Assembly (NCBI RefSeq): GCF_037892195.1
Contig: NZ_JATACI010000002.1
Location: forward strand, 620,001-684,000
Direction: 5' to 3'
DNA from: Yoonia sp. GPGPB17
GTDB lineage: Bacteria > Pseudomonadota > Alphaproteobacteria > Rhodobacterales > Rhodobacteraceae
Length of the DNA stretch: 64,000 nt
The translations under genes and the position numbers were made by a program. This document shows positions 19,778 through 23,253 of the stretch, in pieces. The notes beneath the pieces were generated by a model, which was not told the origin of the DNA, searched no databases, and was given only the letters and a program-made list of their open reading frames with translations. How positions within the stretch are numbered: the stretch's first letter is position 1; each line of letters starts with the position of its first letter.

Positions 19778-20004
19778 GGCTTTAGGATGACGGATGTACG
19801 GAAGTCTGGCAAGATGACGCGGCTTATGCCGGGCTCACCACTGACATCTATGTCCATTCAAAGCGCCATCTCAATCCGAAGGGGAGCGCAACCGTTTTCA
19901 AGGGCACCACCACAGATCCGGATGGGATAACGGCAGATTTTTATTTGCATATTTACGCCACACTTTGCGTGAATAGCATGATAGCTCTTTGTTCAATGGG
20001 TGCG

Positions 20005-20034
20005 CTGGACAAATGAGGTTGCTCATTTATCCAG
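20005..20034. repeat. Inverted repeat upstream of the cysS leader
   Basis: CTGGACAAATGAG and CTCATTTATCCAG form a 13-bp hairpin with one mismatch and a GTTG loop. It ends 37 bases before the putative leader reading frame. It could be an operator or a terminator-like structure, though there is no T run. The region 19778-20004 holds no convincing gene. Confidence 0.5.
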
Positions 20035-20071
20035 ACTGGACGAAACCACTGCCAACTGCTATCCCACCCCC

Positions 20072-20116
20072 ATGAAGAGCATCTGCATCATTACCTGCTG
20101 CATTATTATCTGCTGA
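20072..20116 (+). CDS. Putative Cys/Ile-rich leader peptide of cysS-cimA
   Basis: A 14-codon frame, MKSICIITCCIIIC, ends 82 bases before the cysS start. Ten of its 14 residues are Cys (4) or Ile (6). It precedes a cysteinyl-tRNA synthetase gene and a citramalate synthase gene, the latter leading to isoleucine. Attenuation leaders are short and dense in codons for the amino acid controlled, and this one matches both genes of the operon. There is no Shine-Dalgarno before the ATG, so it would have to be leaderless, as trpL is in some rhizobia, or is not translated. The two-strand pairing downstream (20122-20194) supports a regulatory role. Inference from sequence only. Confidence 0.45.
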   Translation: MKSICIITCCIIIC

Positions 20117-20121
20117 CATCT

Positions 20122-20194
20122 GTCGCGGGTTGCTCTTTCACGTTTCCAATCAAAACTGAACTTGGTAAGCCCGCGGCGTAACCCTGCGCGAGGC
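20122..20194 (+). promoter_or_regulatory. Putative translational attenuator of cysS
   Basis: Two mutually exclusive stems can be drawn. Stem A pairs GTCGCGGG (20122-20129) with CCCGCGGC (20170-20177; one G-U). Stem B pairs GCCCGCG (20169-20175) with CGCG-A-GGC (20187-20194) and buries the cysS Shine-Dalgarno GAGG (20190-20193). A ribosome at the leader stop (20114-20116) would cover the left arm of A and favour B (cysS off). A ribosome stalled on the early Cys/Ile codons would leave A free and expose the Shine-Dalgarno. The pairing was found by eye; no folding energies were computed. Confidence 0.4.
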
Positions 20195-20198
20195 CCAA

Positions 20199-21632
20199 AT
20201 GACGACCATCCGCCTGAACAACACAAAGACCCGCAAGCGCGAGGAGTTTGTACCGATTGAACCGCAAAACATACGTTTGTACCTCTGCGGGCCAACGGTT
20301 TACGACCGTGCGCATATGGGCAATCTGCGGCCTTCGCTGGTGTTTGACGTGCTGTTTCGCCTGCTGAAAGAAGTCTATGGCGCAGATCATGTGACCTATG
20401 TGCGCAATTTCACGGATGTTGATGACAAGATCAATGCGCGCGCCGCTGAATCGGGCCGGGCGATTGGCGACATCACGGCAGAAACGATCCAGTGGTATCA
20501 CGATGATCTGGATGCCGTAGGCTTGCAGCGCCCCACGCATGAGCCACGCGCGACCGCGCATATTCCGCAAATGATTGCGATGATCGCCGATTTGATCGCG
20601 AAGGGTCATGCCTATGCGGCGGAAGGTCACGTGCTTTTCGCGGTTGATAGCTATGCCGAGTACGGTGCGCTTTCGGGGCGTTCGATCGACGATATGATCG
20701 CCGGCGCGCGCGTCGAAGTGGCCCCCTACAAGCGCAATCCGATGGATTTTGTGCTGTGGAAACCGTCTGGTGATGGTGTGCCGGGATGGGACAGCCCCTG
20801 GGGCTACGGTCGTCCGGGTTGGCACATCGAATGCTCGGCCATGAGCCATGAATTGCTGGGTGAGAGCTTTGACATTCATGGCGGCGGCAATGATCTGCAA
20901 TTCCCGCATCATGAGAATGAGATTGCGCAATCTGCTTGTGCCCATCCCCATGGTGAATTCGCCCGCTACTGGGTGCATAACGAGATGCTGCAAGTCGAAG
21001 GTAAGAAGATGTCCAAGTCCTTGGGCAATTTTTTCACCATCCGCGATCTGCTGGATCAGGGTGTACCGGGTGAGGTGATCCGCTTGGTGATGCTGGGCAC
21101 ACACTATAGCAAGACAATGGATTGGACCGAGGCGCGGCGGGCCGAAGCCGAAGGCACATTGCGCAAATGGTACGGCATTCTGCACGGACATGGCTTTGGG
21201 CCAGAGTTGATTGCGGCCTTGGAGGCGGAGGGCAAATGGCAGCCTGACGCAGAGTTTCTTGGTGTTTTGGCCAATGATCTGAATACCTCCGGCGCTTTGG
21301 CGCGCTTGCATGTTCTTGCCAAGGGAAAGACGCCCGTTGCTTTGGCGGGCTTTGCTTACGGTTTGCAGATGTTGGGATTGGTCAACGATTGGTCCGCGAT
21401 CCCACAGTTTGATGGCGGCGAAGCGGGTGCCGGTGTGGCCACGGCGGTTGCGGAACGCGTGGATGCCTTGCTGGCGGATCGGGCAGCGGCCCGGGCGGCC
21501 AAGGATTGGGCGCGCGCAGATGAGGTGCGCGATATCCTGAATGCGGCAGGTGTGCAGGTCACGGACGTCGGTGGGCAGGCCACTTGGGCGCCCGGGCCCA
21601 ACTTTGATGCTGCGAAATTGGAGGGGGTCTAG
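20199..21632 (+). CDS. cysS: Cysteinyl-tRNA synthetase
   Basis: Class I synthetase charging tRNA-Cys, 477 residues. [19 protein letters not shown] holds the zinc-ligand Cys and the HIGH-type motif, WHIECSAMS the second zinc ligand, [19 protein letters not shown] the family signature, and [10 protein letters not shown] the KMSKS loop. GAGG precedes the start by five bases, in a sequence that can be hidden by a stem (20169-20194). The next gene, cimA, starts two bases after its stop, so the two form an operon. Confidence 0.97.
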
Positions 21633-21633
21633 C

Positions 21634-23253
21634 ATGGGCAAGGAACGCCTCTACCTCTTTGATACCACCCTGCGCGATGGCGCGCAGACCCAAGGGGTGC
21701 AGTTTTCTGCTGGGGAAAAGCAGCAGATCGCGGCTGTGCTGGATGACCTTGGCCTTGATTACATCGAAGGCGGTTGGCCGGGTGCCAACCCGACCGATAC
21801 TGAGTTCTTCGCAAGCCCGCCCAAAACGAAAGCGACCTTCACCGCCTTTGGCATGACCAAGCGCAGCGGCCGCTCGGCTGAGAATGACGATGTACTGGCG
21901 GCGGTGATGAATGCGGACACGCCAGCGGTCTGCTTGGTCGGCAAAGCGCATGATTTTCATGTGACGACTGCGCTTGGGATCAGTCTTGAGGAGAATATTG
22001 AAAACCTCTCTGCCAGCTTTGCCCATATCAAGGCGCAGGGCCGTGAGGGACTTTTTGATGCCGAACATTTCTTCGACGGCTACAAAGCAAACCCTGACTA
22101 CGCTTTGCAGGCGATCCATGCGGCCCATGACGCGGGCGCGCGCTGGATCGTGCTGTGCGATACCAATGGCGGTGTGCTGCCCCATGAGGTGTCCGAAATT
22201 GTCACGGCGGTAATCGCGAGCGGCATTCCTGGTGAGCATCTGGCGATCCATACCCACAATGACACCGAGAGTGCGGTGGCTAATACATTGGCTGCCGTAC
22301 TGGCAGGTGCGCGGCAGGTGCAGGGGACGTTGAACGGGCTGGGTGAGCGGTGCGGCAATGCGAACCTGACGACATTGATCCCGACGCTGCTGTTGAAAGA
22401 ACCCTACGCCAGCATGTTTGAAACGGGTGTGTCACCGAACGCTCTGAAGGGGTTGCGCCGCGCGTCGCGCCTGCTTGATGACATTCTCAACCGGGTGCCT
22501 GCCAAGCAAGCGCCCTATGTCGGCGCCTCGGCCTTTGCGCATAAGTCAGGGCTGCATGCGTCGGCGATTGCGAAAGATCCGGCCACTTACGAACACATTG
22601 ATCCGGCGGCGGTGGGCAATACCCGCATTGTACCGATGTCCAATCAGGCCGGGCAGTCCAACCTGCGTACACGTCTGCTAGAGGCAGGACTGGAGGTCGC
22701 GGCGGATGACCCGGCCTTGCCCCGCATTGTCGAGCGGATCAAGGAACGCGAGGCGCAAGGCTATTCTTATGATACGGCGCAAGCCAGTTTTGAGCTTCTG
22801 GCGCGCGAAGAGCTCGGGACATTGCCGCAGTTTTTTGAAGTGAAACGCTACCGGGTGACGGTTGAGCGGCGCAAGAACAAGCGCAATCAGATGGTGTCAA
22901 TCTCCGAGGCGGTTGTGGTCACGAAGGTCCATGGCAAGAAGATGCTGAATGTCAGCGAAAGTCAGGGGCCGGATGGGTCTGATCAGGGCCCGGTCAACGC
23001 GCTCTCCCGCGCGCTGTCCAAGGATCTTGGACCTTATCAGGAGATCATCGACGATATGCAGTTGGTCGACTTCAAAGTCCGCATCACCAATGGCGGGACC
23101 GAGGCTGTGACCCGCGTGATCATTGATAGCGAAGACGGCAAGGGCCGCCGCTGGTCGACTGTGGGTGTCAGCGCCAACATCGTGGATGCCTCCTTTGATG
23201 CATTGATTGATGCGATCAATTGGAAGCTGATCCGGGATGGGGCGAAGGCATGA
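21634..23253 (+). CDS. cimA: (R)-citramalate synthase
   Basis: Condenses pyruvate and acetyl-CoA to citramalate, the threonine-independent entry to isoleucine. 539 residues from ATG 21634, with GGAGGGGG upstream. YLFDTTLRDGAQTQGVQFS is the HMGL-like catalytic start, AIHTHNDTESAVANTLAAV the HxH metal motif, and GTLNGLGERCGNANL the family signature. From about residue 400 comes the LeuA-type allosteric domain (FEVKRYRVTVERRKN onward), where isoleucine or leucine feedback acts in relatives. The DGAQTQGV stretch and the EGGWPGANPTD segment favour CimA over 2-isopropylmalate synthase. It overlaps the following lipoprotein gene by four bases. Confidence 0.92.
   Translation: MGKERLYLFDTTLRDGAQTQGVQFSAGEKQQIAAVLDDLGLDYIEGGWPGANPTDTEFFASPPKTKATFTAFGMTKRSGRSAENDDVLAAVMNADTPAVCLVGKAHDFHVTTALGISLEENIENLSASFAHIKAQGREGLFDAEHFFDGYKANPDYALQAIHAAHDAGARWIVLCDTNGGVLPHEVSEIVTAVIASGIPGEHLAIHTHNDTESAVANTLAAVLAGARQVQGTLNGLGERCGNANLTTLIPTLLLKEPYASMFETGVSPNALKGLRRASRLLDDILNRVPAKQAPYVGASAFAHKSGLHASAIAKDPATYEHIDPAAVGNTRIVPMSNQAGQSNLRTRLLEAGLEVAADDPALPRIVERIKEREAQGYSYDTAQASFELLAREELGTLPQFFEVKRYRVTVERRKNKRNQMVSISEAVVVTKVHGKKMLNVSESQGPDGSDQGPVNALSRALSKDLGPYQEIIDDMQLVDFKVRITNGGTEAVTRVIIDSEDGKGRRWSTVGVSANIVDASFDALIDAINWKLIRDGAKA

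Follow-up and report, generated by a model that had tools for sequence, protein, structure and literature searches.

A candidate leader read through cysteine and isoleucine codons ahead of cysS-cimA in Rhodobacterales and Hyphomicrobiales

Why should a very short reading frame, made largely of cysteine and isoleucine codons, stand ahead of an operon for cysteinyl-tRNA synthetase and citramalate synthase? The question was raised by the window, by which we mean the whole 64,000-nucleotide stretch of Yoonia sp. GPGPB17 DNA analyzed here, in which the first-pass annotation had reported a 14-codon frame with four Cys and six Ile codons, placed it 82 bases ahead of cysS-cimA and judged the match between codons and genes to be hard to put down to chance. 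Reading of the window confirmed the frame, with Cys at codons 5, 9, 10 and 14 and Ile at codons 4, 6, 7, 11, 12 and 13. Its setting was also as reported: the gap of 82 bases from the leader stop to the cysS ATG spans 20117-20198, both genes score above their NCBIfam cut-offs, and a single base separates cysS from cimA (Table 1). Citramalate synthase catalyzes the first step of the threonine-independent route to isoleucine. As for chance, the core pattern of the leader is present in a single copy in its own genome, even with up to three mismatches allowed, and the frame recurs in 53 of the 54 same-genus cysS loci, the remaining locus (L089) being N-masked. The genus sample comprised 56 genomes searched, 55 with cysS and 54 loci read, the window's own among them (L081); the exception is G037, at 240 bases from a contig end.

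Table 1. Positions of the leader, its predicted control elements and the two downstream genes within the window.
Feature	Position	Strand	Basis
-35-like element CTGGAC	20036..20041	+	coincides with the T-T-G block (-36 to -34) of 216 non-redundant leaders
-10-like element TATCCC; predicted transcript start 20072	20060..20065	+	-12/-11/-1 pattern of 216 leaders
Leader ORF MKSICIITCCIIIC plus stop, 14 codons, predicted leaderless	20072..20116	+	sequence; genus conservation
P1 5' arm of terminator-like stem (codons 1-4)	20074..20081	+	fold of 20072-20145; cross-locus test
Inner hairpin, Cys5 to Cys10	20084..20102	+	fold only
Tandem Cys codons 9-10; last stall positions removing P1 in simulation	20096..20101	+	simulation
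Stop-codon hairpin	20108..20130	+	fold; cross-locus z -9.3 and -6.4
P1 3' arm, itself U-rich; U-rich segment to ~20146	20131..20138	+	fold; U content
Alternative 2:3 hairpin, proposed antiterminator	20124..20175 (20124-20134 with 20164-20175)	+	fold; cross-locus test
cysS Shine-Dalgarno-like site GCGCGAGG	20186..20193	+	sequence
cysS, cysteine--tRNA ligase	20199..21632	+	NCBIfam TIGR00435, 439.5 bits, cut-off 340
cimA, citramalate synthase	21634..23253	+	NCBIfam TIGR00977, 593.4, cut-off 450; start and stop codons verified

Alternative frames of the leader were set aside, since the Ile and Cys triplets sit in frame 0; a His/Leu-rich third frame is interrupted by a stop in L091. An antisense ORF opposite cysS (20106-21641) was presumed to be a chance occurrence, and no Rfam match at E<=1 was obtained in 19900-20300. 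Window positions 20084-20113 approximate a tandem repeat of TGCATYATTAYCTGC, and repeats of this kind could be a route by which Cys and Ile codons multiply. The same genome carries a second cysS (G000:C2:2198415-2199740, L340:4413-5753; TIGR00435; 53% identity to the window copy), unlinked to the first, and no Cys/Ile leader was seen in the stretch upstream of it. The ORF before this gene is GTPase-like, has both a CLCC motif and a His-rich stretch and, in our view, resembles a COG0523 metal chaperone; the second cysS may be a zinc-starvation paralogue.

Part of the leader is already in print. The annotation had known of no dual-input attenuator described for cysS-cimA, but the cysteine half of the leader has been published as uORFC-8-2, a motif whose 145 examples, according to the section of Brewer et al. 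2021 (PMC8632094) that treats it, occur exclusively upstream of cysS in Rhodobacterales. The same section lists tandem Cys codons along with two stems and a U run and predicts ribosome-mediated attenuation, as we do for the window leader. The leader lies directly before cysS in a member of Rhodobacterales, its AUG and tandem Cys codons are conserved with UGC dominant, and its fold agrees with the two-stem layout in which the first stem holds the Cys codons, with a modest U run and an empty alignment fold. It is almost certainly a member of uORFC-8-2. The Cys pair is "usually" at codons 14 and 15 in the published section but at codons 9-10 in the window, where the numbering may differ. That section speaks of Cys only, with Ile, cimA, a leaderless start and Hyphomicrobiales all unmentioned; judged from sequence comparison, a likely second input (Ile), a wider range (Hyphomicrobiales), a link to cimA and a leaderless start, with the first codons as the 5' arm of a terminator-like stem, would be new here. 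Among the open PMC papers examined, none besides Brewer 2021 was seen to name uORFC-8-2 or to describe a cysS leader, and in none was a link to Ile or cimA seen; PMC4833913, PMC1273637 and PMC2965389 do not mention cysS.

How widely is the design kept? Leaders of the same design stood before cysS in 168 of 195 Rhodobacterales loci, with Marivivens, Roseovarius, Sulfitobacter and Pseudorhodobacter among the named carriers; the nearest named relatives of the window locus are Rhodobacterales as well, Marivivens for example. For this order, 148 genomes had cysS, of which 30 gave loci and 100 more were added, the rest being omitted except for genus members. Absence of the start codon or of the Cys/Ile codons from close relatives had been set beforehand as the test that could overturn the proposal; start codon, frame and Cys/Ile-rich core proved to be conserved in near and distant relatives alike. 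Two loci (L154 and L155) carry a leader extended to 19 codons (MKSQTTIISSIICCIIISC) with the frame intact, perhaps by repetition of the Ile/Cys block. The final leader list held 244 loci and 216 peptides of 9 to 31 codons, counting ATG starts only. It had been hand-corrected by removing eight spurious picks and setting 33 leaders manually, including some that had escaped the rule; the promoter, codon-change, shuffle, arm-swap and Thr/Ile counts given below include two miscalled genus leaders (L104 and L124).

Outside Rhodobacterales, the same design was found in Hyphomicrobiales. A cimA gene was present in 46 of the 50 genomes searched in this order; the upstream DNA was read in 45 of these (G278 was left out), and cysS leaders were found in 42 of the 45 loci, some of them set by hand, and in none of four loci without cimA. 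Examples from this sample, which was drawn from the order of Ensifer, are MKTVVCIICGKIIR, MTAIRNICICGIIIG and MNGSIILIGIICG. A separate set of 18 named records was assigned to Hyphomicrobiales, by taxonomy look-ups except for the common rhizobial genera; upstream DNA was read for 17 of them, all but L037. A leader was present in 11 of the 17 (Stappia, Bradyrhizobium, Devosia, a Xanthobacteraceae MAG, Ensifer, three Rhizobium, two Mesorhizobium and Phyllobacterium), and none was found at cysS in the other six, namely Rhodomicrobium, Methyloligella, Ancylobacter, Methylobacterium, one Parvibaculaceae and one Rhodobiaceae MAG. In other orders and classes among 80 cysS loci, inspection by eye and both ORF picks gave no convincing leader.

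The annotation had seen a weak point in the missing Shine-Dalgarno sequence and reasoned that the frame must be leaderless or else untranslated. We aligned the upstream sequences of 216 leaders, ungapped, on the leader AUG. No Shine-Dalgarno block was seen before the AUG in this alignment, as had been noted for the window; a promoter pattern appeared instead, with T (56%), T (75%) and G (55%) across -36 to -34, T or A at -12, an A at -11 in 63% and a C at -1 in 81% of the sequences. A strict sigma-70 consensus scan upstream of the window leader returned zero sites. Since the pattern is fixed to the AUG, the transcript is predicted to start at the A of that codon, and the frame should be leaderless, consistent with the first of these options. 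A transcript start downstream of 20072 had been named as evidence against the proposal; the predicted start is 20072 itself.

We then considered how such a transcript might fold. The segment 20072-20145 folds at -20.3 kcal/mol (z -2.29) into a stem, P1, that pairs the first codons (20074-20081) with 20131-20138 and encloses the Cys-codon and stop-codon hairpins, while 20117-20190, with its GCGGG..CCCGC 2:3 hairpin, folds at -24.9 kcal/mol (z -2.88). No consensus pair emerged when RNAalifold was applied to 47 leaders aligned with MAFFT. Because the plain alignment fold came out empty, arms were swapped between loci, and the pairing of each leader with its own arm was compared with its pairing to arms from other loci. 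The start arm paired with its own post-stop arm far better than with foreign ones (z -12.9 in 137 Rhodobacterales, -7.0 in 50 Hyphomicrobiales; 0 of 2000 permutations as good), and the same held for the stop hairpin (z -9.3 and -6.4, respectively); a control arm gave +5.7 and +1.1. The 2:3 hairpin gave a weak signal in Rhodobacterales (z -1.4); that from Hyphomicrobiales was clearer (z -4.7).

Ribosome stalling was simulated by masking a simple assumed footprint and taking minimum-energy folds only. In the window, stalls at codons 2-10 removed P1 and left the 2:3 hairpin formed, whereas P1 formed with stalls at codons 11-15; a stall at the stop codon did not remove it, and Ile11-13 and Cys14 are thus positions where a stall leaves P1 intact. 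In the free minimum-energy fold, P1 was present in 95 of 137 Rhodobacterales and 33 of 50 Hyphomicrobiales leaders and absent in 42 and 17, respectively. Among the Rhodobacterales leaders with P1, it was lost in 73% of the stalls at Cys codons, in 70% of those at Ile codons and in 23% of those at the stop codon; the corresponding values for Hyphomicrobiales were 57%, 51% and 12%. The simulation informs on the position of a stall and not on codon identity, because any early-codon stall removes P1 equally.

Collectively, we favor the likely reading, drawn from sequence comparison, that the leader is a leaderless ribosome-mediated transcription attenuator of cysS-cimA, responding to the charging of tRNA-Cys and tRNA-Ile. 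The dual attenuator proposed by the annotation is supported by the frame, the codon bias, the coupling of the start arm and stop hairpin, the position of the promoter pattern and the association with cimA, all of which emerge from the comparison; from these we infer where the transcript actually starts, that the frame is translated, that transcription terminates and that a shortage of either amino acid evokes a response, as follows. The transcript would begin at the A of the leader AUG, and a ribosome would load without a Shine-Dalgarno sequence. When Cys-tRNA and Ile-tRNA are ample, the ribosome would reach the stop codon, so that the first four codons could pair with the U-rich segment that follows the stop-codon hairpin; P1 would then form and transcription would terminate ahead of cysS. 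When charging of either tRNA is low, the ribosome would stall at codons 4-10 and mask the 5' arm, so that no terminator could form, the GCGGG..CCCGC hairpin would take its place and cysS-cimA would be transcribed.

The same leader with the same inputs could instead act on translation, by hiding the ribosome-binding site of cysS, with no part for termination. In the window's genus and in genus g6 the U tracts are weak, with at most 5-6 T in 9 and a median of 4, respectively, and the U-rich segment overlaps the P1 3' arm. The g6 loci that we inspected have a short distance from leader stop to cysS, with the GCGGG..CCCGC hairpin abutting the ribosome-binding site, and mycobacterial Cys leaders, according to the excerpt of PMC1262725, have no terminator hairpins. 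Against this, the U content in and just behind the 3' arm is raised relative to sequence further down in the window's genus, in other Rhodobacterales and in Hyphomicrobiales, and the two states of the window folds do not differ clearly in whether they expose the site. Given the modest U tracts and the empty consensus fold, translational control is a possible, if unlikely, alternative to the transcription attenuator.

We next asked whether Ile is selected in the leader as well as Cys. In the final leaders, ATT/ATC made up 38.7, 29.9, 21.4 and 25.3% of in-frame triplets in the four groups and 0-1.1% of those in the two remaining frames, and TGC/TGT made up 27.3, 23.3, 11.3 and 11.0% against 0.2-1.7%. 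The picker, however, accepted only leaders with one or more Cys and one or more Ile near the stop, and hence the presence of both in every listed leader is partly built in, by this rule and by the manual setting. For this reason, ORFs were also picked blind to codons, by start-arm pairing alone (282 of 323 loci, all classes; 41 had no candidate), which is a fairer measure than the rule-picked list. In these, Ile accounted for 23.3% of in-frame triplets, compared with 0.7 and 0.9% in the other frames, and Cys for 16.6%, compared with 1.5 and 1.5%; Cys together with at least two Ile was found in 214 of the 282, compared with 97 of 204 unpicked ORFs, many of which are nested in the same frame. 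When bases were shuffled within the Hyphomicrobiales leaders, a mean of 42.5 Ile codons (sd 6.0) was obtained, compared with the 228 of 861 observed.

Single codons told a less tidy story. The annotation had expected synonymous-only changes at Cys and Ile codons, an expectation that failed on the tree of 47 genus leaders, with 9 synonymous versus 39 non-synonymous changes at Ile codons and 3 versus 17 at Cys codons. The well-held codons in the genus are 7 and 10-12: the ratio of synonymous to other changes is 6:4 for Ile7, Ile11 and Ile12 and 1:0 for Cys10, and among the 14-codon genus leaders codon 9 is Cys in 43 of 47 and codon 10 in all 47 (46 TGC, 1 TGT). ATT encodes the Ile behind the tandem Cys in 114 of 117 leaders, which indicates that an RNA or nucleotide constraint acts there. 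The case for selection on amino acids rests on the frame test and the distant leaders, and we read the pattern as apparent selection on a Cys/Ile codon cluster and not on single codons.

Could the leader be a Cys-only attenuator as published, with Ile a mere filler imposed by RNA structure or an A/U-rich context? The section on uORFC-8-2 mentions Cys codons alone; Cys10 is invariant in the 14-codon genus leaders, the ATT behind the Cys pair is nearly so at the level of nucleotides, and Ile codons 4, 6 and 13 vary with no synonymous preference. Yet the confinement of Ile triplets to the frame, also seen with the codon-blind pick, speaks against a filler. The residues one base away from Ile also bear on this point: in 242 leaders with 1004 Ile codons, Val and Phe are rare (40 and 29 codons), Thr, however, being common (404). 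The Hyphomicrobiales leaders moreover average 1.82 Cys versus 4.38 Ile (50 unique peptides), with one Cys and at least five Ile in L308, L319, L325 and L332, and no leader was found where cimA is missing. We therefore hold the Cys-only explanation to be unlikely, and regard the putative Ile input as well supported by comparison. Single-Cys leaders of Hyphomicrobiales may rely more on Ile than on Cys. In five leaders of this order (L313, L315, L326, L334 and L337), the lone Cys codon lies close to the stop, often within ..IICG or ..IICA.

The association with cimA was examined at 195 Rhodobacterales loci, of which 168 had both leader and cimA, eight cimA only, 19 neither and none a leader only; these loci, like those of the other leader/cimA counts, are related and not independent. 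The count omits 24 genus loci (L111-L134), two leader-bearing loci whose cimA state was undecided (L011 and L025), L019 and L067; "no cimA" means none within ~1.3 kb or more behind cysS, and L137 and L144, twins of L111 and L123, carry leaders and are counted among the 168. On the CysS tree we traced four losses of cimA and what looks like one regain (L258); all four losses lack the leader. The largest is a 15-locus clade of genus g6, which includes L258, with cimA and without a leader; seven further loci have lost the leader and retained cimA (L013, L168, L188, L209, L222, L241 and L242). When 11 genomes lacking cimA beside cysS were tested, ten had no cimA match at all and one (G068) had cimA elsewhere. 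No leader was found in the 500 bases upstream of a stand-alone cimA, in the genome of L008, where the gene lies apart from cysS. In Hyphomicrobiales, two of the 45 loci had cimA on a different contig. For the named records with a leader, cimA lay within ~3.2 kb downstream on the same strand in 10 of 11 (in L071 it is split over other contigs), and for the six leaderless ones it lay downstream in two, with none in the downstream stretch read in four. Behind one leader-bearing cysS, cimA contains one in-frame TGA (G305:C18:214480-216075), which may mark a pseudogene or an assembly error.

Such figures invite the thought that isoleucine, through cimA, is the main input and cysteine a minor one: the leader was never found without cimA, and 44 of the 47 unique peptides from Hyphomicrobiales contain more Ile than Cys. 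Every counted leader has at least one Cys, though the picker demanded one, and the tandem Cys is the most constant part of the leader in the window's genus. Leader and cimA may also have been lost through a shared cause: in the largest leaderless g6 clade, the same kind of upstream gene ends just before cysS in the seven loci inspected, and the association could in part be a by-product of rearrangement upstream of cysS. A leader that reads mainly isoleucine is, in our judgment, improbable. That the frame arose by chance within an intergenic stretch can hardly be credited in view of its conservation over two orders, the frame test and the start-arm pairing test.

One leader carrying codons of several amino acids has precedents in E. 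coli thrL (Thr/Ile) and the ilv leaders. These resemble the window leader in that more than one amino acid would be read by one leader, but they differ in serving linked pathways, in being led by a Shine-Dalgarno sequence and in the lack of a tRNA synthetase gene. A leaderless 14-aa leader peptide is known from Sinorhizobium meliloti, where, as the excerpt of PMC10117765 relates, the leaderless ORF of peTrpL/rnTrpL is seen by Ribo-seq to be translated and forms part of a trp attenuator; this alphaproteobacterial peptide has the length of the window's and the leaderless start predicted for it, but senses Trp, with trpE downstream. Polycysteine sORFs of mycobacteria are leaderless and cysteine-responsive by the title of Canestrari 2020. 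According to the excerpt of PMC1262725, the mycobacterial and other Actinobacteria cys leaders are Cys-rich like ours, but they belong to another phylum, precede cys and cbs operons, have no terminator hairpins and are not reported there to contain Ile.

Conservation of the leader over two orders suggests a switch that turns on cysS-cimA when Cys or Ile is short. We think it reasonably probable, if a little less so than the attenuator as such, that this is a leaderless two-input attenuator (Cys and Ile) that links a tRNA synthetase with the citramalate route in both orders, kept only where cimA shares the operon, with its first codons serving as a terminator arm. If so, one short RNA would integrate the charging of two tRNAs from unrelated pathways, and cysteinyl-tRNA synthetase would be coupled to isoleucine supply across two large orders, so that a motif known as a cysteine sensor of Rhodobacterales would gain a wider scope. 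A leaderless start whose first codons double as a terminator arm would be a simple layout, readily tested in roseobacters and Sinorhizobium, and the shared switch would offer a possible reason why cysS and cimA have stayed adjacent.
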